A stretch of 64,000 nucleotides of DNA, taken from Streptacidiphilus albus JL83 (GTDB lineage Bacteria > Actinomycetota > Actinomycetes > Streptomycetales > Streptomycetaceae). This document shows positions 5,484-64,000 of this stretch, one piece after another. The notes below the pieces were generated by a model. It saw only the letters and a list, made by a program, of their open reading frames with translations, had not been told where the DNA came from and made no database searches. The DNA lies in assembly GCF_000744705.1 (NCBI RefSeq), contig NZ_JQML01000001.1, positions 5,342,017 through 5,406,016 of the forward strand. Direction: 5' to 3'. The position numbers and the translations under genes were made by a program. Every line of letters starts with the position of its first letter. Position 1 is the first letter of the stretch.

Positions 5484-6335
5484 GTGATCGAAGGAGCCGA
5501 GCTCTACGGCCATCTGATGGACAGTCGGATCGCCGGGCAGGTGGCCACCCCGCGCGAGCACAATCTGCGGAACTACGCCCGCTTCGCCCGCCGCGACCCC
5601 GACCTGCTGCTCGGCCTCGATCCGGCGGGGAGCTGGACCGAGGCCGAGGTGCTCGCCCTGCTGGCCCGGCGCTGCGGGGTCTCGCCCGACCCGGCCCGTC
5701 GTCAGGGGCAGGACACCATCGACCCGGAACTGACGATCAGGGCGCTGGACGCCATGGCGGCGGTGCTCCGGGAGACCGCGGCGGCCCGCGGCCGGGTGCT
5801 GCTCGGCACCGGCCACCCGAGCCGGCTGCTCCTCTTCTACCGGCAGCTCGCCGCCGGACTGCGCGCCGCCGGCTGCGCCCTGCTCACGCCGGCGCGCGGG
5901 CAGCGCTTCGCGATGCACGCGCCGGAGGGCGCGCGCCCTGCCCGGCTCGACTACGTGGACGACGTAGGACTTGTGCGGGTGTATGAAGGGAACCCCCCGA
6001 TCGGAGCCCCCGGCTCCGCGGCCCCCGACGCGGTCGGGTCGGCCACCCCGGTCCACACCCATTCGCCGCAGCCCGTCCGGATCGCCCTGGCCGCCCTGGC
6101 CGAGAGCGGCCACAACCGTCCTGACCTGCTCATCGGCGACCACGGCTGGGCCTGCGGGGCCGGCCGACTGGGCGTCAGATCGGTCGGCCTGGCCGACTCC
6201 AACGACCCCGCGGTCTTCGTCGCGGAGGCCGAGGGGGAGGTCGCGGTGACGGTTCCGCTCGACGACGGTGTGCGACCGGACTGCTACGGACTGCTGAGCG
6301 CCTACGTACTGCAACAGGCTGGTATGTCTCAGTAG
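5484..6335 (+). CDS. Predicted phosphatase-family protein of the conserved Streptomyces core
   Basis: A 283-residue soluble protein starting at GTG. It has no signal peptide. A central stretch (RVLLGTGHPSRLLLFYRQLA) and a late stretch (LLIGDHGWACGAG, VGLADSNDP, VAVTVPLDDGV) mark a family found next to the BldC-like regulator gene in streptomycetes and usually annotated as phosphatase. I could not confirm catalytic residues, so the name is tentative. It lies 80 bp after acuC and 126 bp before the HTH gene, on the same strand. Confidence 0.6.
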   Translation: MIEGAELYGHLMDSRIAGQVATPREHNLRNYARFARRDPDLLLGLDPAGSWTEAEVLALLARRCGVSPDPARRQGQDTIDPELTIRALDAMAAVLRETAAARGRVLLGTGHPSRLLLFYRQLAAGLRAAGCALLTPARGQRFAMHAPEGARPARLDYVDDVGLVRVYEGNPPIGAPGSAAPDAVGSATPVHTHSPQPVRIALAALAESGHNRPDLLIGDHGWACGAGRLGVRSVGLADSNDPAVFVAEAEGEVAVTVPLDDGVRPDCYGLLSAYVLQQAGMSQ

Positions 6336-48953: not shown

Positions 48954-49310
48954 CTAGCCTCCCGGCTGAGGTGTCAACGCCTGGTGGAGGGCCGAGCTCG
49001 GCCCGAAGATGATCGCGGACATCATCATCGGCACATAGCTCTCGATCGGCACCTTGTCGGCGACGCCGAGGACGGAGACGCCCCAGCCCCATTGGAAGAC
49101 CGCCACCACCACGCCGTAGGAGGCGCCGATCGAGAGCAGGTTGAGCACGGCCGCCTTGACCGCGACGAGCATGCCGCGGAACACCGTGAGGATGATCAGG
49201 AAGGCCAGCCCGACCACCACCGCGATGATCAGCGGCAGCCGGGCACGGATGATGTCGGTGAAGTCGAACTGGGCGGCGGTGACGCCGGTCAGGTAGGACC
49301 GACTCGGCGC
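48954..49310 (-). pseudogene. Fragment of an MMPL/RND-type transporter
   Basis: The minus-strand frame reads YLTGVTAAQFDFTDIIRARL, LPLIIAVVVGLAFLIILTVF, RGMLVAVKAAVLNLLSIGAS, YGVVVAVFQWGWG, VPIESYVPMMM, the start of the second MMPL membrane bundle. After SAIIFG the family continues LSMDYEVFL, but here it breaks into GPSSALHQALTPQPGG and a stop. There is no start codon at the other end. It is an internal piece of about 115 residues from a protein of about 700. Confidence 0.75.
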
Positions 49311-49377
49311 GACGGGCCATGAACCAGGAGCACGTAGAGAGAAGAAGCGCAGAGCCGCCTAGGTAGCAAACTCGCGG

Positions 49378-49583
49378 GTCAGGGCCACATCAGGCAGTAG
49401 AGCTGGTGGCCGGCGTCGTGCAGCCGGTTGGCGAAGTCCTGCCACTCGTGCAGCTATTCGCGCGGGGAATGCGCTGATCTGCGACGATGCCGTGAACCCG
49501 CCGCCGGCCAGCGAGAATCGCCTTTCATGGCTTTCGCTGATCGGCGGCACTTTTCACGCCCAAGTGCCCTGAAAGTGCCCTGT
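49378..49583. repeat. Dispersed repeat, copy A
   Basis: The core (gggccacatcaggcagtaga to tcctgccactcgtgcagc, then tattcgcgcgg) is shared with copies B, C and D. On the minus strand the core codes for LHEWQDFANRLHDAGHQLYC then LMWP and stop. The right-hand part (gcgctgatctgcg ... ggcacttttc ... ending in the doublet gtgccctgaaagtgccct at 49564-49581) is shared with copy D. Confidence 0.85.
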
Positions 49584-49636
49584 GCGGTCAGGCGTTTCGC
49601 CGACGTGGCCGCCTAGGCTGACGCCATCCCAGCTAC

Positions 49637-49655
49637 CGTATTACGGCGTGATACG
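49637..49655. promoter_or_regulatory. Putative VapB operator, pair 1
   Basis: Inverted repeat CGTAT ... ATACG around tacggcgtg, 9 bp before the antitoxin start. The same ctaccgtA/TTACGnCGTnATAC sequence lies before antitoxin 2, so both pairs may respond to the same or cross-binding antitoxins. Confidence 0.55.
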
Positions 49656-49663
49656 ATTTGCCC

Positions 49664-49984
49664 ATGGCGAAGACGAGGATCTCCATCAGCCTGGATCCCG
49701 ATCAGGCCGAACGCATCAGGCTGGCCGCGGAGGAAGGTGGTCAGGACGTATCCGCCTTCGTGGTTGCCGCCGCACTCACTGAAGCCGTCCGCCGGGAGCG
49801 CATCGCCGCGTCCTTCGCGGATATCGACGCAGCCATTGCTGCCGCTGAGGCCGAGGCGGAGTCCTTGGACTGGCCGCCTGCGAGCGATGCACCCGCAGAC
49901 GAGGAGTCCGTTCGGATCAGGGAGCAGGTTGCGGCAGCCCGAACTCGGGCGGCAGCTATCCGTGCCCGTCGGAACGCGGCATGA
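49664..49984 (+). CDS. vapB: VapB-like antitoxin, pair 1
   Basis: A 106-residue protein starting MAKTRISISLDPDQAERIRL, an RHH-type DNA-binding end found in type II antitoxins, followed by an acidic/Ala-rich helical tail (FADIDAAIAAAEAEAESLDW) that would wrap the toxin. It overlaps the PIN-domain gene by four bases (ATGA). The N-terminal MAKTRISISLD is the same in antitoxin 2. Confidence 0.82.
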   Translation: MAKTRISISLDPDQAERIRLAAEEGGQDVSAFVVAAALTEAVRRERIAASFADIDAAIAAAEAEAESLDWPPASDAPADEESVRIREQVAAARTRAAAIRARRNAA

Positions 49985-50430
49985 ATTGGGGCTGCCCGAC
50001 GCGTCCTGACGCTGATTCGCTCGGTGACGTGGTGTACGACGCGGGGATGCTCATCGCGCTCGCCGACCCGCGTGATCGGCGAGCGCGAGTGCTTCACGCG
50101 GAGTACTGCCTGACTGGGCGTCCGGTCGTTCCTGCCCCGGTGGTCGCTCAGGCGTGGCGGGGAGGGGCTCGCACCGCCTACCTGGCGCGGGCCCTCAAGG
50201 ACTGTGCGGTGGTGTGCTGCTACACCGAGGCGGAGTGGCGCAGGGTGGGCGAACTGATCGGCCGGGCGGATCTGAACCCGAAGAAGAAGCCGGATCCTGT
50301 GGACGGCTTGGTCGCCCTCACGGCCGTGGAGATCGATGCGACGATCGTCGCGACGTCGGACGGGGACGACATCCAGGCGTATCTGGACCAGATCCACGGC
50401 AGCCAGGCAATCACGGTTCTCGGCGTCTGA
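49981..50430 (+). CDS. vapC: VapC-like PIN-domain toxin, pair 1
   Basis: A 149-residue predicted Mg2+-dependent ribonuclease. PIN-domain acidic residues are Asp20 in VVYDAGMLIALAD, the central Asp in KPDPVDGLVALTAVE, and the late ATSDGDDIQAYL. The 16-residue N-terminal addition before VVYDAG is longer than usual. It is co-translated with antitoxin 1. Confidence 0.82.
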   Translation: MNWGCPTRPDADSLGDVVYDAGMLIALADPRDRRARVLHAEYCLTGRPVVPAPVVAQAWRGGARTAYLARALKDCAVVCCYTEAEWRRVGELIGRADLNPKKKPDPVDGLVALTAVEIDATIVATSDGDDIQAYLDQIHGSQAITVLGV

Positions 50431-50482
50431 CCCGGTCGCGTCTTCATGGGCCGAACCGGAAGTGATATGAAGTTCCGGCAGA

Positions 50483-50650
50483 GTGCCCTCAAGGTGCCCT
50501 GGGGAGATCTGGCAGGATCCTGGCCGGCTCCGGATCTCACTCACCCAGGACGGCTAACCCGCAGCTCAGGGCCACATCAGGCAGTACAGCTGGTGCCCCG
50601 CGTCGTGGAGCCGGTTGGCGAAGTCCTGCCACTCGTGCAGCAAATGATCA
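50483..50650. repeat. Dispersed repeat, copy B
   Basis: It has the left-hand part (doublet gtgccctcaaggtgccct at 50483-50500, then ggggagatctggcagg) shared with copy D and the full core (cagggccacatcaggcagta onward). The core codes the same 24-residue peptide as copies A and D with synonymous changes. It stops at the point where A, C and D continue with tattcgcgcgg. Confidence 0.85.
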
Positions 50651-50874
50651 CCCCAGGTCGCTGACCTGGGGTGATCCGCTCAAACGCCCGCTGACCTGGG
50701 ATTTCAGTGTTCAGCACCTTGCACCGTTCATGGTCGTTTTCCGCCCCTATGTGCACGCGATGTGCACGCGCTAATTCGCCGCGACGAGGTGCTCCGCAGT
50801 AGATCGAACCCTGATCGCGCGAGAGCGATACCGTGGAGCGAGTCGAGACTGCCTGGGACAAAGGAGGTGACCCT

Positions 50875-51450
50875 ATGAGCATCACAGCTGATCATCGCCC
50901 GCAGATGAGCGTCGAGGAGTTCGAGGAGATCGCGGCCCATACGCCCGAGACCGTCACCTTGGAGTTCATCAACGGGAAGATCGGAGTAAAGGCAGTGCCT
51001 GACGGTGACCACGGGGCGATCATCATGTGGCTGCTGCGGCGGTGCATGCAGAGCCGTCCAGAGCTGGACCTGCACATCGAGCAGGGCCTGCGTGTGGATG
51101 CCTACCGGTCCGGCCACGCCCGCCCGGACGGTGTCCTGGCTCCGATCGCCCACTTCGCCGGGCAGGGCGAATGGGCTGACCCGCAGGGTGCGCTGATGGC
51201 GGTCGAGGTCACGTCCTACGATCCCGACACGGACCGACGTGACCGAGTCGAGAAGCCGGCGGCCTATGCCGAGGCAGGCATCCCGGTGTACCTGCTGATC
51301 GACCGGGACAGCTGCGAGACGGTGGTGCACACCGAGCCCGAGGGTGGGAAATACCGCAGCATCCGATCCGATGCGTTCGGGGCGAACGTCGTGATCCCCG
51401 GCCTGGGGATCACTCTGGAGACCGAGATCCTCAAGCAGTACGTTCGCTGA
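50875..51450 (+). CDS. Uma2-family (DUF820) PD-(D/E)XK nuclease-like protein
   Basis: A 191-residue protein. MSVEEFEEIAAHTPETVTLEF, then RPDGVLAPI, LMAVEVTSYDPDTDRRDRVE, KPAAYAEAGIPVYLLIDRDS give the Asp ... Glu-x-Val ... Lys arrangement of Uma2 restriction-fold enzymes. The role of Uma2 proteins is not settled; they are frequent in streptomycetes and cyanobacteria. The ribosome site aaggaggtga is a perfect anti-SD match 4 bases before the ATG. It lies alone between repeat copies B and C. Confidence 0.88.
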   Translation: MSITADHRPQMSVEEFEEIAAHTPETVTLEFINGKIGVKAVPDGDHGAIIMWLLRRCMQSRPELDLHIEQGLRVDAYRSGHARPDGVLAPIAHFAGQGEWADPQGALMAVEVTSYDPDTDRRDRVEKPAAYAEAGIPVYLLIDRDSCETVVHTEPEGGKYRSIRSDAFGANVVIPGLGITLETEILKQYVR

Positions 51451-51460
51451 CCTCCGCCCG

Positions 51461-51590
51461 GCTCAGAGCCACGAGGCAGGAGAGCTGGCGGTCGGGGTCG
51501 TGGAGGCGGGTGGCGAAGTCCTGCCATTCGTCGAGCTATTCGCGCGGTCGCGGCGCTGACTGCGACGATGTGGCGAAAGTGCCCTGCCGG
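51461..51590. repeat. Dispersed repeat, copy C (divergent)
   Basis: It keeps the core in weaker form (gctcagagccacgaggcagg ... ggtggcgaagtcctgccatt) and the junction gctattcgcgcgg, then ggcgctgactgcgacgatg and gaaagtgccctg. Its coded peptide is degraded (WQDFATRLHDPDRQLSCL, no stop). Confidence 0.75.
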
Positions 51591-51608
51591 GAACGTGCGG
51601 GATGGTCG

Positions 51609-52094
51609 TCAGACGGCGACGAGGCGGACGTCCTGTGCGTTCAGCGCTGCCAGGTAGGCGCTGATGTCGTCTGGGTCGCTGGTGAAGACGACTGCGCTGC
51701 CGTGGCGGACTGCTGTGATGGCGACCAGGGCGTCCACCACGTCAGGCCGCTTCCTCGGCGGCAGATCCGCAGCGCCCAGGGCTCCGCCGATTCGGTGCCA
51801 CTCGGCCAGGTCCAGGGCCGTGCTGCAGTGCAGGCATACGGGTTGTCCGGCGGCCGTCGGGCGCAGTGCACCGGGTGAGCTGCGCGCGTGCGGGATGGTG
51901 CAGTCCCGTAGGGCGGTTGCCAGTGCGTGGACGGTACTTGGGGCGGGACGCCAGACCTGCCCCAGGACTGGCCCCGGCACGATGGCGCGGTGCAGGGTCG
52001 CCTTCAGTCCTTCGTGCAGGCGGACAGCCTTGGCCTTGCGATCGGCGAGCGCGATCAGCATTCCGGTGTCGTAGATCGGGACGCGGGCGTTCAC
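51609..52094 (-). CDS. vapC: VapC-like PIN-domain toxin, pair 2
   Basis: A 161-residue PIN protein: IYDTGMLIALADRKAKAVRL (first Asp), PDVVDALVAITAVRHGSAV (central Asp) and FTSDPDDISAYLAALNA (late Asp). The middle contains an unusual insert with two cysteines (QPVCLHCSTALDLAEWHRIG) absent in toxin 1. It overlaps its antitoxin gene by four bases. Confidence 0.82.
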   Translation of the reverse strand: MNARVPIYDTGMLIALADRKAKAVRLHEGLKATLHRAIVPGPVLGQVWRPAPSTVHALATALRDCTIPHARSSPGALRPTAAGQPVCLHCSTALDLAEWHRIGGALGAADLPPRKRPDVVDALVAITAVRHGSAVVFTSDPDDISAYLAALNAQDVRLVAV

Positions 52095-52435
52095 GCCGCG
52101 TGGTCAGGGCGCTGCTGCCGCCCTTGCGATCGTGCGGGTCGGTCGGAGCCGTAGACGAGTTCCATGGCCTCGTCGACCTCGCGTCGCTCTTGCTCGGTGA
52201 GGTCGTCCTCAGCAACGTCGGGCAGGGCCGGCAGTTCTGATGCTTCGGCTTCTGCTGCGGCGATGACCGCGTCGATGGAGGCAAACTGTGCCTCCAGCTC
52301 ATCGGTCTCGGCCATCTGCCGGGTCGCAGCGTTGACGAGGTAGGCCGAGACGTCCATCCCGGCACGGTCGGCGTGCGCTCTGATCCGCTCGGCATGCTCT
52401 GCATCGAGGCTGATGCTGATCCTGGTCTTCGCCAT
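52091..52435 (-). CDS. vapB: VapB-like antitoxin, pair 2
   Basis: A 114-residue protein starting MAKTRISISLDAEHAERIRA, followed by VSAYLVNAATRQMAETDELE and an acidic helical region (DLTEQERREVDEAMELVYGS). The first 11 residues and the general design match antitoxin 1, so the pairs are paralogous or horizontally related. A near-palindromic site lies 10 bp upstream. Confidence 0.82.
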   Translation of the reverse strand: MAKTRISISLDAEHAERIRAHADRAGMDVSAYLVNAATRQMAETDELEAQFASIDAVIAAAEAEASELPALPDVAEDDLTEQERREVDEAMELVYGSDRPARSQGRQQRPDHAA

Positions 52436-52444
52436 AGCTTCAGT

Positions 52445-52460
52445 GTATGACGCGTATTAC
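52445..52460. promoter_or_regulatory. Putative VapB operator, pair 2
   Basis: gtatgacgcgtattac (imperfect inverted repeat) directly upstream of antitoxin 2; its complement aligns with the site before antitoxin 1. Confidence 0.5.
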
Positions 52461-52526
52461 GGTAGGCCAAGCCGCTACTGCCCAGGCGCCGGGCAGTAGG
52501 GGTCGTGGTTGCCGAAGCTCTGGCGG

Positions 52527-52815
52527 CGTGCCCTCAAAGTGCCTTGGGGGACATCTGACAGGCCCCTTCGCCGACTCCGAATATGGCCCGAAGAGGCGGT
52601 AAACCCGCAGGTCACGGCCACATCAGGCAGTACAGCTGGTGCCCCGCGTCGTGCAGGCGGTTGGCGAAGTCCTGCCACTCGTGGAGCTATTCGCGCGGCC
52701 ATGGCGCTGACCTGCGAAAACGTGCCAAAAGTGCCTCTGAGCTGCGAAAACTACCTTTCGTGGTTTTCGCTGTTCGGAGGCACTTTTCAGCGCCATGTGC
52801 CCTGAAAGTGCCCTC
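52527..52815. repeat. Dispersed repeat, copy D (most complete)
   Basis: It carries both side parts and the core: left doublet gtgccctcaaagtgcctt (52528-52545), core from ggtcacggccacatcaggca at 52611, junction gctattcgcgcgg, and right doublet gtgccctgaaagtgccct (52797-52814). It ends 20 bp before the S1-domain gene stop. About 6 of 89 core bases differ from copy A. Confidence 0.85.
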
Positions 52816-55404: not shown

Positions 55405-56196
55405 GTGAGTGATTCCATCCCTGCCTGGGCGCAGGACGACTTCGGCGAGCACGCGGCTGAGGTGCGCAATGCGGTGCTGTCGGCGCTGCGGACCACCGGT
55501 AAGACGATGCTGGAAGTGAAGGCGGTCGCCAACTCGCGGCGGAACTTCGCACCGGCTGGGGCTCGGATGACGAATCAGTTCGAGCGGCTCACGCAGCATC
55601 TAGAGGCGCTGGATCTCCCAGAAACCGAACTCGTCAAGACCGGCACGTGGTACGAGCTGGCGCTGGTAATGAATCGGCTGTTTTACCCGGTCTGGATCGA
55701 AGGGGTGGACCGGGAGCCGGGCGACCAGTGGCCGAAGAAGTCGTTGTCTGGCGTGGTGAGGGAGCTGTTCGCCGTTACAGACTCTGGCCGGCCGCGCTGG
55801 GTCGAGGACCCGCTCCTAGGACTGGACGTTCCAGAGCTCGTTGTGCGTCGTTCCCTGGCTGAGTTGGCTGGCCGCGATCCTCGACCCCGTCTCGTGCTCG
55901 TCATGTACGAGACCGACCACGGCGGCCTCCATCGAGCCTGGTGGGGGCAGGCGGAACTGGTGGATGAGAGCGGTGCCCTGCGATGGCTCGCCGAGCCTGA
56001 GCTGCTGTCTTCGGATGGCACGGCTACGCTGGCCTCCGTTCCCCAGCAGCGAGACGAAGATCGTTTCGATGCCGGAGCGCCGCCCGAGGTACCGATGGCC
56101 GAGCGAAGCGCTCACGAGCGTGGTCTGGACATCACCCCTCAGACCGAGAAGCCCGAGCCAACGGAAGACGACGCGACCGCAAGTGAAGAGGACTGA
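55405..56196 (+). CDS. Unknown protein paired with XRE-ImmA/IrrE
   Basis: A 263-residue soluble protein: IPAWAQDDFGEHAAEVRNAV, FERLTQHLEALDLPETELVK, WYELALVMNRLFYPVWIEGV, RLVLVMYETDHGGLHRAWWG. The C-terminus is acidic and disordered (PEPTEDDATASEED). I recognise no family. It overlaps the start of the XRE-metalloprotease gene by 14 bp, so they act together, perhaps as the substrate or partner of the protease. Confidence 0.65.
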   Translation: MSDSIPAWAQDDFGEHAAEVRNAVLSALRTTGKTMLEVKAVANSRRNFAPAGARMTNQFERLTQHLEALDLPETELVKTGTWYELALVMNRLFYPVWIEGVDREPGDQWPKKSLSGVVRELFAVTDSGRPRWVEDPLLGLDVPELVVRRSLAELAGRDPRPRLVLVMYETDHGGLHRAWWGQAELVDESGALRWLAEPELLSSDGTATLASVPQQRDEDRFDAGAPPEVPMAERSAHERGLDITPQTEKPEPTEDDATASEED

Positions 56197-57355
56197 GCAG
56201 CCCACCATCCCCAACCTTGGCCTCGTCAACGACGTATCGCCGAGGGCAGTCTGGGATGCCTTCCATCCGCCCAGGCTCACTCAGGCACGCCATCTGGCGG
56301 GCATGACCAAGAAGGAAGTCGCTACTCGTATCGGTGTCTCTCCGGCAGCTGTGGGTCAGTATGAGACGGGAAGCAGCAAGCCCCGTCCGGAGCTGTTGCC
56401 CCGCCTTGCCGACGTGTTGGAAGTTCCGGTTGAGTTCTTCTTGGCTGGGCGTCCGATGGGCAAGCTCGACACCTCAATGGCGCACTTTCGGGCCCTTCGT
56501 TCGACGAGCAGTGCACAGCGGGACCGTGCTCTTGGCTTCGCCGCGCAGGTCTGGGAACTGACCCACGCTCTGGAAAAGCGCATTCAGCTACCGTGGGTCG
56601 ACCTCCCAGGATTTGCTGGTGGCGAGGTCCATCCTGGAGTGGACCTGCCAGCGGAACCGGTTGCGGCTGCACGTGAACTGCGCCGACGCTGGAGCCTTGG
56701 GAAGGGGCCCGTCCGTCACCTTGTGCGTCAGATGGAGGCTCACGGAATCGTTTTGGTCGCGCCGTCGGACGCGGATCCGAGCGCTGCCAAGGTAGATGCC
56801 TTCGCCAGCGCCGGACTGCCCCGACCTCTCGTGATCCTGACAGCTAATCGTGCGGACGATGTGTACCGTCATCGCTTCAGCGCCGCGCACGAGCTCGGTC
56901 ACTTGGTGCTGCACTCGGCCTCAACCGGAGATGCTGCCCAGGAGCATGAAGCAAACGCGTTTGCTGCGGCCTTCCTCACGCCCGCGGAGTACATCAAACC
57001 GCTCCTTCCGAGTCGGATGAATCTCGCGCACCTTGCCGACTTGTCTCGCGCATGGGGTGTCTCGGTCAAATCCCTCATCTACCGTTGCCGCGAGCTCGGC
57101 TTGACGTCGGAGGCCAGCGCGAGCCGGGCTTACCAACGGCTCGCGGCTCTTTCCAGGCAGCCAGGCTTCGCTCCTGAGCCTGTCGCTGGTTTTCCGGGGG
57201 AGCAGCCTGTGATGCTCAGCCAAGCGTTCGAGCTTGCTCGTCGAGAATCGGGCCTTACCGTCCAGGAGCTAGCCAGGGAACTGGCGTGGAAGCCTGAGAG
57301 GGTGCGTGTTCTTCTCGGAGTGGCTGACACACGTCCCGTTCTGCGTCTCGTGTGA
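56183..57355 (+). CDS. XRE-family regulator with ImmA/IrrE-type metallopeptidase domain
   Basis: A 390-residue protein. The XRE HTH (about 31-85) is RLTQARHLAGMTKKEVATRI, GVSPAAVGQYETGSSKPRPE. The protease motif is HRFSAAHELGHLVLH with His236, Glu237 and His240, followed by EHEANAFAAAFLTPAEYIKP. A second short helical region near the C-terminus (LARRESGLTVQELARELAWK) looks like another HTH. Proteins of this design (ImmA, IrrE, PezT-linked) cleave a repressor after stress or control phage and mobile elements. GTG start at 56183; other starts upstream belong to the overlapping gene. Confidence 0.86.
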   Translation: MKRTEQPTIPNLGLVNDVSPRAVWDAFHPPRLTQARHLAGMTKKEVATRIGVSPAAVGQYETGSSKPRPELLPRLADVLEVPVEFFLAGRPMGKLDTSMAHFRALRSTSSAQRDRALGFAAQVWELTHALEKRIQLPWVDLPGFAGGEVHPGVDLPAEPVAAARELRRRWSLGKGPVRHLVRQMEAHGIVLVAPSDADPSAAKVDAFASAGLPRPLVILTANRADDVYRHRFSAAHELGHLVLHSASTGDAAQEHEANAFAAAFLTPAEYIKPLLPSRMNLAHLADLSRAWGVSVKSLIYRCRELGLTSEASASRAYQRLAALSRQPGFAPEPVAGFPGEQPVMLSQAFELARRESGLTVQELARELAWKPERVRVLLGVADTRPVLRLV

Positions 57356-61170: not shown

Positions 61171-64000
61171 ATGAGCGTCCCCGGCAAGCCGCTCTACCAG
61201 CACACCGGTACCGCACTGCTGCGGGCAGCCACGGTGCCGCTGACCCGTGGCACCGACTGGTGGCCGGACCCGGCCGACACTGCGGACTGCCGCCGCTGGC
61301 TTGGGCAGGTCTGGTCCCGGCCGGAAGTTGCCGACGCGATCCGTGATGCCAGCCCCGGACTGGCCGGGCGGGTCGACGCGATCCGCGCCGACCGCCCGGT
61401 CACGGACAAGCAGATCCTGCGCGCGACCGAGTCCACCGCCCGCTACCTGCTGCGGTCCACCGGCCGCCCAACGCCGTTCGGCCTGTTCGCAGGAGTGGCC
61501 CAAGCGAGGCTGGGGCCGACCGCCACAGTACGGTTCGGCACCGGCCATCGGCCGGTCGCCCGGGTCGATACCGAGTGGCTGGCCAGCGTTGTCGATCGTC
61601 TGGAAGCCGTCCCCGAACTGCTCGAGCGCTTGGACTTGGTGTTCAACAACCTCGCCGCTCAGCGTGGTGGCCGACTCCAGGTACCCCATGGCGGACCGAA
61701 CCGCGTCAGCGTCCGCTACACCAGCGCGATCCGAGTGCTGCGGGACGCCGCCGCCAGTGCGGCCCCGTTCGCGGATCTGGCGGACAAGCTCACCGAGACC
61801 GTGCCCGGCGCCGACCGGTCCCGCGTCACCGCGGTGCTCGCCGAGCTTGTCCGGCAGGGCTTCCTGATCACCTGCCTGCGGGCCCCGCTCACGGTCACCG
61901 ACCCCCTGTGCCACCTGCTCGACCGGCTTCGCGAGGCCGGAGCGGACACCGTGCCGGCCGTGGTGCCGGTCCTGCGGGAACTTGAGGCCGTCCGCGACGA
62001 CCTCGCCCAGCACAACAGCCAGGGCGGTCCAGTTCAGGGGCGCGCGGAGATCGTCGGACGCCTGCGAGACCTGTCCTCGGCCGGACGCACCGCGCTGGCA
62101 GTGGATCTGCTGCTGGACTGCGATGTCCAGGTGCCCCGCGAGGTGGCCCGTGAGCTGGAGCGGGCCGCCGACGTCCTGCTGAGACTGACCCGCCAGCCGA
62201 CCGGCGAGGCGGTGTGGCGCGAGTACCGTGCCGCGTTCTGGGAGCACTACGGCATCGGCACCCTGGTCCCCCTGACCGAGTTCCTGGACCCGGCCGCCGG
62301 ACTCGGCTTCCCCGCGCAGTACCCCGGCAGCACAATGACCCCGCCGGTGGCCGCACCCACGGCACGCGATCAACGGCTGCTGGCCCTGGCCTGGCAGGCG
62401 ATGGCCGACGGCAGCGGCGAGATCCTGCTGACCGACCGGATCATCGACGAGTTGACCGACGGCGCACGTCTCGACGAGCACCGCATCCCGCCGCACGTGG
62501 AGATCGCGGCCCGGATCCAAGCCGGAAGCACGACCGCGTTGGAGCGTGGGGACTTCACCGTGACCGTCACCCCGGCTCGCGCCGCTGGAACCCTCACCTC
62601 ACGGTTCACCCCCGTCGCCACCGGCACCGGCCTGGCCGACATCTACCGGGGCCTGCCTGCCTCGACAGCCGGGGCCCTTGTCGCCCAGTTGTCGTTCCCG
62701 CCGCTCTACCCGCACACCGAGAACATCTGTCGCATCCCCGCCTATCTGCCCCACGTCATCGCCCTGGGCGAGCACCGCCACCCGAACGATGCGGCCACTG
62801 TCATCCCGCTGGATGACCTCGCGCTCACTGCTACCCGCGACCGCCTGCACCTGGTCAGCATTTCGCGCCGCCGGGTGGTCGAGCCGCAGGTGTTCCATGC
62901 CATGGCGTTGGAGAAGCAACCGCCCCCCTTGGCCAGGTTCCTGGCTCACCTCCCGCGCGCCTTCGCCGCCATCTGGACTGGCTTCGACTGGGGCCCGCAC
63001 GCCGTCCACCTGCCCCGCCTGCCTCGGGTCCGCTACCGCCGCACCATCATCTCCCCGGCCCGCTGGACCCTTGCCGTCGGTGCCCTGACCGGTACCGGCA
63101 TCATGGACCTGGAGCAGTGGCGCAAGCGCTGGGGCTGCCCGCGTACAGTCGAACTTCGAGACCAGGAGCGGACGTTACGGCTGACCCTGACCGAGCCGGT
63201 CCACGTGGCGATACTGCACACGCACCTCAAGCGTTACGGGACCGCCGTCTTGACCGAGGCCATCGGCGCCGACGAGCTGGGCTGGTTGGAGGGGCACGTC
63301 CACGAAGTCGCCGTTCCTCTGGTCGCCGCCCGTCCCCCTGCCCCCTCGCCGCTGGCCGGATCGCTGCCGACGACCACGAACAGCAGCCGCGGCCCCCTGC
63401 CCGGCTCACCGGCGAGCCGGTGGCTGAACGCGAAGCTTCGCACCCACCCCGAGCGCTACGACGAGATCCTGACCGAGCACCTGCCCCGGCTCCTGGCCAG
63501 CCTGCTTGGCGACCCTCAATTCTGGTTCGTCCGCTACCGCAGTCCGCACGAGAGTGACCATCTGCGGATGCGCTTCCGCACCCAGAGCCCGGACCAGTTC
63601 GGGCAGTTCGCCGATGTGATCGGCCGGTGGGCGGAAGGACTGAGGCACGACGGCCTCGCCTCCGGGCTGGCCTTCGACGTCTACGCGCCCGAGACCGGCC
63701 GCTACGGGTACGGTGCGGCCATGGAAGCGGCCGAGGCGGTGTTCTGCGCCGACTCGCAGGCGGTCACTGCCTCGCTCCGGCTCCTGCCGGCCCCTGCCGT
63801 CGACCCGAGGTCGCTGGTCGTCGCGGGCATGGTCGACATCGCCCGCGGCTTCCTCGGATCAGACGACGCCATGACGTGGCTGGCATCCCGGCCCGCGCCC
63901 ACTGCCCCCGCTGCCGATCGGGTTATGGCCAACCGCTCGGTCCAGTTGGCTCTGCACGGCTCGGGCCCGTGGCCAGGCGAGATCGAGCGGGTCCGGCAGT
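61171..64000 (+). CDS. lanB: Class I lanthipeptide dehydratase (LanB), partial at the window edge
   Basis: The frame is open from ATG 61171 to the right edge (943 codons so far). The N-terminal glutamylation domain has SVPGKPLYQHTGTALLRAAT, RSTGRPTPFGLFAGVA and SARWTLAVGAL-like C-terminal parts. The elimination domain, SpaB_C/thiopeptide type, begins with WLNAKLRTHPERYDEILTEH and FWFVRYRSPHESDHLRMRFR. It uses glutamyl-tRNA to dehydrate Ser/Thr in the precursor. ggagg lies 5 bases before the ATG. The cyclase (LanC) and further genes are expected past the window. Confidence 0.9.
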   Translation, partial: MSVPGKPLYQHTGTALLRAATVPLTRGTDWWPDPADTADCRRWLGQVWSRPEVADAIRDASPGLAGRVDAIRADRPVTDKQILRATESTARYLLRSTGRPTPFGLFAGVAQARLGPTATVRFGTGHRPVARVDTEWLASVVDRLEAVPELLERLDLVFNNLAAQRGGRLQVPHGGPNRVSVRYTSAIRVLRDAAASAAPFADLADKLTETVPGADRSRVTAVLAELVRQGFLITCLRAPLTVTDPLCHLLDRLREAGADTVPAVVPVLRELEAVRDDLAQHNSQGGPVQGRAEIVGRLRDLSSAGRTALAVDLLLDCDVQVPREVARELERAADVLLRLTRQPTGEAVWREYRAAFWEHYGIGTLVPLTEFLDPAAGLGFPAQYPGSTMTPPVAAPTARDQRLLALAWQAMADGSGEILLTDRIIDELTDGARLDEHRIPPHVEIAARIQAGSTTALERGDFTVTVTPARAAGTLTSRFTPVATGTGLADIYRGLPASTAGALVAQLSFPPLYPHTENICRIPAYLPHVIALGEHRHPNDAATVIPLDDLALTATRDRLHLVSISRRRVVEPQVFHAMALEKQPPPLARFLAHLPRAFAAIWTGFDWGPHAVHLPRLPRVRYRRTIISPARWTLAVGALTGTGIMDLEQWRKRWGCPRTVELRDQERTLRLTLTEPVHVAILHTHLKRYGTAVLTEAIGADELGWLEGHVHEVAVPLVAARPPAPSPLAGSLPTTTNSSRGPLPGSPASRWLNAKLRTHPERYDEILTEHLPRLLASLLGDPQFWFVRYRSPHESDHLRMRFRTQSPDQFGQFADVIGRWAEGLRHDGLASGLAFDVYAPETGRYGYGAAMEAAEAVFCADSQAVTASLRLLPAPAVDPRSLVVAGMVDIARGFLGSDDAMTWLASRPAPTAPAADRVMANRSVQLALHGSGPWPGEIERVRQ

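Follow-up and report, generated by a model that had tools for sequence, protein, structure and literature searches.

A probable accretion array of integrase-less islets at the 3' end of a conserved gene beside hemL in Streptacidiphilus albus

Four copies of one repeat, A to D, separate two VapBC-type toxin–antitoxin (TA) modules and an Uma2 gene in the genome of Streptacidiphilus albus JL83 (the source genome, G000). We analysed them in a stretch of 64,000 nt (the window); coordinates are positions in the window, and window-equivalent positions continue the same numbering past its end. The cores of the four copies are copies of the 3' end of a conserved gene beside hemL. Very probably, A to D are attL- or attR-type copies left by repeated integration of tyrosine-integrase elements, and the small units between them (islets) are integrase-less inserts that resemble cis-mobilizable elements (CIMEs).

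Repeat cores and the gene beside hemL

A repeat search of the window found the four copies in the same register, starting at 49361, 50548, 51443 and 52594 and 65–87% identical to a reference copy across 124 nt. An earlier note on this DNA, made from the sequence alone, had described the order A – VapBC1 – B – Uma2 – C – VapBC2 – D, which the repeat search and gene calls bear out. It had also described a dispersed repeat with a core of about 85 bp; the four copies are there, but the core common to them measures 78 bp and is degenerate in C. Translation of the minus strand gives the protein end LHEWQDFANRLHDAGHQLYCLMWP followed by a stop codon for cores A, B and D, and a degenerate version of it for C.

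When the whole genome was searched for the core, a fifth copy was found besides those of the array, 25 kb rightward and beyond the window. An intact 208-aa gene, divergent from hemL, ends in this copy, and the core corresponds to its last 24 codons plus the stop. The gene has no naming family in Pfam or NCBIfam, and its 3' end is present in 228 of 249 Streptomycetaceae genomes. Across 49 aligned core copies, a common 78-bp block extends from the stop codon to ...CACTCGTGCAGC, with few degenerate exceptions; past this block, each copy continues into the gene itself or into one of a small set of conserved element ends. The earlier note had named confinement of the repeats to this locus as a point against a cassette-like array. 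In the source genome they are indeed found at this locus alone, as a single attB site predicts, yet they recur at the orthologous locus in other genera.

Integrase elements and their attachment site

A tyrosine integrase adjoins the intact gene in three other Streptacidiphilus genomes (G007, G009 and G013; PF00589 search, above cut-off) and, as gene calling and Pfam showed, in two genomes of other genera (G212 and G033). A second core lies 20–29 kb off in G007, G009, G013 and G212. Filled and empty sites could be compared in two cases: a 29.1-kb insert distinguishes G212 from G098, and a 22.7-kb insert distinguishes G007 from G001 and G006. In both, the joined flanks align with the empty site over about 1.2 kb, homology on the attL side stops at the core end and homology on the attR side starts at the core start. 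These pairs represent site-specific insertion into the 3' end of the gene, with the protein left intact. The left flanks of two further pairs (G146/G046 and G009/G003) are non-homologous, and these pairs are thus uninformative. A family of 20–29-kb integrative (mobilizable) elements in Streptomycetaceae uses the 78-bp gene end as its attachment site.

Besides the integrase, the full elements encode an excisionase-like helix-turn-helix (HTH) protein. A MobA/VirD2 relaxase (PF03432) scores above the cut-off in G212 (1.3e-7) and just under it in G013 (6.5e-5), and G009 has no Pfam relaxase match. No FtsK/TraB-type translocase was recognised among the called genes of G007, G009, G013 and G212, part of which were covered by the hidden Markov model (HMM) scan. 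Integrative and mobilizable elements (IMEs) and actinomycete integrative and conjugative elements (AICEs) are defined by a site-specific integrase and exact insertion, both of which are found here, and the relaxase of G212 supplies the mobilization module of an IME. In their tyrosine integrase, their excisionase-like HTH protein and, in G212, the MobA/VirD2 relaxase, the full elements resemble actinobacterial IMEs and AICEs (PMC5704250, PMC3218068). However, AICEs with tyrosine integrases mostly target tRNA genes (PMC5704250, PMC3218068), whereas the target here is the 3' end of a protein gene. A phage origin was considered and rejected; the integrase has only distant relatives (<60%) in phages and plasmids. 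The absence of transposase and integrase reported by the earlier note holds within 49.4–52.8 kb, but not as a property of the system, which has an integrase in relatives and a remnant of one in the source genome.

The ends of the elements carry doublets of the form GTGCCCT-N4-GTGCCCT. There are 23 of these in 505 kb of examined regions, against 0.1 expected from pair-shuffles. The 9.9-Mb source genome has four, three of them in the array, and both of its exact matches to the motif GTGCCCTNAAAGTGCCCT lie there. In 14 whole genomes of the genus, 12 of the 21 exact matches to the doublet pattern fall at this locus. A pattern scan of genome contigs returned many unrelated matches outside Streptacidiphilus. 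The right doublet stands exactly 109 nt past the core in 15 of 18 copies, which come from several genera and from DNA that is just 71–89% identical. The left doublet lies 92–94 nt from the core in the integrase elements; in islets B and D the distance is 81–82 nt, shorter by one helical turn. The doublets belong to the element ends and flank the core in attP geometry; tyrosine-integrase attP sites, as described for lambda (PMC4111918), likewise have a core between paired sites. We infer that the doublets are putative arm-type integrase-binding sites. The earlier note had placed them at the outer edges of A, B and D; they stand right of A, left of B and on both sides of D, the left ones at B and D being one base off.

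A variant element end, with the palindrome GATCACCCCAGGTCGCTGACCTGGGGTGATC and a GTGCACGCGATGTGCAC doublet at the same 109-nt spacing, occurs in 5 of 395 genomes, with copies in G011, G012, G013 and G008. A search of the 395 genomes with this end, for the integrase cognate to its GTGCAC variant arms, gave no integrase-bearing example. The variant end suggests a sister element of other arm specificity. In G008, a B-type att copy lies elsewhere in the chromosome (contig C240, region L109, ~5917–6053), on a contig that has a YchF-like GTPase gene and lacks the hemL-adjacent gene; it may be either a secondary-site insertion or a rearrangement. Most right ends, of D-type and B-type alike, also have a conserved GCTGACCTG motif 18 nt past the core (e.g., 50660–50668 and 52706–52714), possibly a further protein-binding site.

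Module order, accretion and alternative readings

Relatives carry the same modules in other orders. G011 has a 285-aa gene, Uma2, VapBC1, a 171-aa gene, VapBC2, a long stretch and the intact gene; G012 has Uma2, VapBC1, a 798-aa gene and VapBC2, which directly abuts the intact gene; and G013 has a VapBC1-like module, other genes, VapC2 (VapB2 is lost), Uma2, a full integrase element and the intact gene. The core that follows Uma2 leads into VapBC2 in G000, VapBC1 in G011 and G012, and the full integrase element in G013, whereas past the core that follows VapBC1 comes Uma2, the 171-aa gene or the 798-aa gene. In G000, G011 and G012, one and the same VapBC1 islet, with its two ends present, has different neighbours. 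The 128-nt right end of B is 95% identical in G011 and 91% identical in G012, and the similarity ends just past the doublet, where different cargo begins. The modules have no fixed order and are joined at the core. That the modules were joined at the repeats, as the earlier note had proposed, is upheld by these relatives, and the fixed gene order that it had named as a counter-indication was not found among them. Integrase-less islets occupy the same site in other genera with other cargo, such as an ATPase and, also in G102, a large RHS-like protein. In this genome (region L125), two integrase-less islets lie at the site, and one of them encodes an RHS-repeat protein of 1347 aa (polymorphic-toxin-like) together with a small neighbour.

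Accretion would explain this arrangement. Tyrosine-integrase elements would integrate repeatedly into the 3' end of the conserved gene, each restoring the gene with a 3' end of its own, so that the previous 3' end comes to lie beyond the insert. Several rounds would produce a row of 78-bp gene ends with an insert between neighbours, and the integrase would bind the paired GTGCCCT sites that flank the core on either side. Then A, which has a right arm, would be the attL and B, which has a left arm, the attR of the VapBC1 islet, a single unit with 1,109 bp between its cores; the right end of B and C would bound the Uma2 unit (817 bp), and C and D the VapBC2 islet (1,073 bp). The presence of both arms at D is what a tandem junction would lead one to expect. 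The three units would be att-bounded, CIME-like islets kept for their cargo, and they may have been reshuffled among strains by recombination at the common core, either by the integrase of a co-resident full element, which could move islets in trans, or by homologous recombination. The islets have no integrase or transfer genes of their own, and tandem position at the target gene of a full element is seen in G007, G009, G013 and G212. Bounding by attL and attR is complete in VapBC1 and incomplete in VapBC2, where C is degenerate, and in Uma2, which has the variant arm.

The module genes are under purifying selection. The ratio of nonsynonymous to synonymous substitution rates (dN/dS) of VapB1, VapC1, Uma2 and VapC2 against orthologues is 0.06–0.16, close to that of hemL (0.06–0.18). 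The modules are being maintained rather than decaying. Between G000 and G004, VapBC1 DNA is 91% identical and hemL 85.6%, which hints at exchange but does not prove it.

The stretch from D to the intact gene measures 24.7 kb, and a degraded full element is its likely occupant, as indicated by an integrase remnant, transposase-like genes and a lantibiotic dehydratase gene. The remnant is a truncated relative of the relatives' integrase (window-equivalent 67736–68341, ~15 kb right of the array and just past the window), with 74% identity across residues 232–439. The source genome has no full-length close relative of this integrase, the nearest long match having 37% identity, and the array may therefore now be stranded. 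Transposase-like genes are found only at window-equivalent 68.9–71.3 kb; none lies between the repeats, and a transposon reading was rejected. The lantibiotic dehydratase gene (PF04738, PF14028) is followed by two genes that resemble a partner biosynthesis protein and a methyltransferase (61171–64000 and on to window-equivalent 66638), so that the cargo is probably a lanthipeptide/thiopeptide-type cluster. The stretch also encodes a protein with HTH_3 and IrrE-like peptidase (ImmA/IrrE) domains (55841–57355); ImmA/IrrE-type proteins are often regulators of mobile elements.

Accretion is favoured by several observations: the identity of the gene ends, the integrase-bearing elements, the exact empty sites, the fixed arm geometry, the exchanged neighbours and the purifying selection. 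Other observations weigh against it. No genome compared has an array that is otherwise the same but cleanly lacks one of the ~1-kb islets or has it excised. The left site of the VapBC2 islet, C, is degenerate, and no recognised arm was found at the left end of the Uma2 unit. Synonymous divergence (dS) is mostly 0.2–0.5 for islet genes among close relatives and 0.40–0.54 for hemL, and as these values are near each other, long vertical inheritance is possible for most islets. For the source strain, the outermost empty site was not recovered: a fragment that resembles an MMPL-type transporter gene (48954–49310) is broken off ~65 nt left of core A, which indicates that the left flank of the array has itself been rearranged.

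We give about even credence to the array being a relic, in which full elements integrated in tandem, their insides were deleted, and the islets are inert, with repeats shuffled only by homologous (RecA) recombination. The degenerate core C, the merely truncated integrase of the source strain, the loss of VapB2 in G013 and an islet dS near the chromosomal one all fit this, whereas purifying selection, both doublets of VapBC1 kept in G000 and the changing neighbours of this complete islet do not. It is possible, and we suggest it only tentatively, that the 3' end of this housekeeping-linked protein gene instead carries a cassette-like array that still works. Here, ~1-kb TA or Uma2 units with minimal attP ends would be excised, exchanged and reinserted in trans by the phage-type tyrosine integrase of a co-resident element. 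The VapBC1 islet, with a core and doublet at each end and the conserved right spacing, its identity to G004 above that of hemL, and the variable order agree with such activity, but no circle or clean gain or loss was observed, and the Uma2 unit has an arm of other sequence for which no cognate integrase was found.

Two further readings are much less likely. Ordinary duplication or RecA-type recombination could have spread gene-end fragments without a site-specific integrase ever taking part, and the 65–90% core identity between copies would also fit old duplications. Exact empty sites, an integrase beside the intact gene and a fixed arm spacing across several genera make this very improbable. 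A (super)integron, with the modules as gene cassettes with attC sites, deserves practically no credence, although the layout of small modules between repeats is shared and the relatives' integrase weakly matches integron integrases (TIGR02249, 46 bits). That match reflects the common tyrosine-recombinase domain and is far under the cut-off of 265; moreover, the site is not an attC but the coding 3' end of a gene, 78 bp long and flanked by arms, and the full units are 20–29-kb elements, with a relaxase in G212. The cassette analogy of the earlier note therefore survives as a description of the layout, but neither as integron membership nor as a new cassette principle, as the att sites derive from a gene 3' end and are not attC-like.

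Locus features and relation to known systems

The features of the array are listed below. Both VapBC assignments are tentative and draw on 4-nt overlaps of antitoxin and toxin genes and on RHH_1 matches; the PIN match of VapC2 is weak (5e-4, below cut-off), and VapC1 is assigned to PIN by homology to VapC2 and conserved acidic residues alone. An AlphaFold model of VapC2, from a shallow alignment, was unusable (predicted local distance difference test score, pLDDT, 38), and PDB sequence searches returned nothing useful. Homologues of VapBC1 in G140, G339, G149 and G173 are located away from att sites, so this TA family is wider than the islets.

Table 1. Features of the repeat array, in window coordinates
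Feature	Position	Strand	Remarks
Core A	49377–49454	-	Last 24 codons and stop of the 208-aa gene beside hemL, displaced; attL-type, right arm present
gtgccct doublet, right arm of A	49564–49581	+	109 nt past core; proposed arm-type integrase site
VapB1-like ribbon-helix-helix antitoxin	49664–49984	+	PF01402 9e-5; dN/dS 0.06–0.14
VapC1-like PIN toxin	49981–50430	+	No direct Pfam match; 48% identity to VapC2, acidic residues conserved; dN/dS 0.07–0.16
gtgccct doublet, left arm of B	50483–50500	+	81 nt ahead of core; one base off the earlier note's consensus
Core B	50564–50641	-	3' gene end
Right end of B	50642–50769	+	128 nt; palindrome 50646–50676 (GATCACCCCAGGTCGCTGACCTGGGGTGATC); variant doublet GTGCACGCGATGTGCAC
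Variant doublet GTGCACGCGATGTGCAC, right of B	50751–50767	+	+109-nt spacing, as in gtgccct right arms
Uma2-family protein, putative restriction-endonuclease-like	50875–51450	+	PF05685 6e-19; PADLOC PDC-S03; dN/dS 0.06–0.11
Core C, degenerate	~51459–51536	-	Begins 8–9 bp past the Uma2 stop codon, likewise in G011, G012 and G013
Single gtgccct near C	51579–51585		C has no doublet
VapC2-like PIN toxin	51609–52094	-	PF01850 5e-4, under gathering score; dN/dS 0.12–0.15 against close orthologues
VapB2-like ribbon-helix-helix antitoxin	52091–52435	-	PF01402 0.001, under cut-off
gtgccct doublet, left arm of D	52528–52545	+	82 nt ahead of core; one base off
Core D	52610–52687	-	3' gene end; arms on both sides, attP-like tandem junction
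Imperfect inverted repeat within right arm of D	52727–52787	+	
gtgccct doublet, right arm of D	52797–52814	+	109 nt past core

The array is of a known kind, as represented by CIME accretion, ICESt1 and PAISt, but is an unusually small variant with single-module units of ~1 kb. CIMEs are elements that lost integration and transfer genes and kept attL and attR, and a route of accretion has been described for them (PMC5704250). As with the CIMEs and ICESt1 of Streptococcus, units that are bounded by attL and attR and lack an integrase form a stack at a target gene's 3' end, next to an integrase element or following it. CIMEs are, however, decayed integrative and conjugative elements (ICEs) or IMEs (PMC5704250), whereas the units here are 0.8–1.1 kb with a single TA or Uma2 module under purifying selection.

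The nearest documented case within the same bacterial family is PAISt of Streptomyces turgidiscabies, where copies of the bacA 3' end (attL, attI, attR) split the island into modules that excise separately via a tyrosine integrase (PMC4057263). As in our array, copies of a protein-gene 3' end divide the island, and relatives of PAISt keep C-terminal integrase remnants, which there lack a catalytic residue (PMC4057263). PAISt differs in its bacA target, its palindromic att of 8 bp, its module sizes (105 and 569 kb) and its demonstrated excision. The ssrA islands of Dehalococcoides are also numerous, tandem and each bounded by a copy of the target 3' end, and only some of them have an integration module, but they use a tmRNA target, serine recombinases (Ccr-like) and a direct repeat of ~20 bp (PMC3146451). 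Integron cassettes share the small single-function modules between copies of a recombination site, and differ in having attC and IntI where our array has protein-gene ends with arm sites. The literature searched, which left out subscription literature, held no description of the target gene or of the ~1-kb units.

Our analysis identifies an integration hotspot and an element family across several Streptomycetaceae genera, with the attB, the integrase and probable arm sites. A repeat array that seemed free of integrase can thereby be tested as an example of minimal islets that depend on an integrase. Should the islets move in trans, TA modules would travel as near-minimal elements without an integron.

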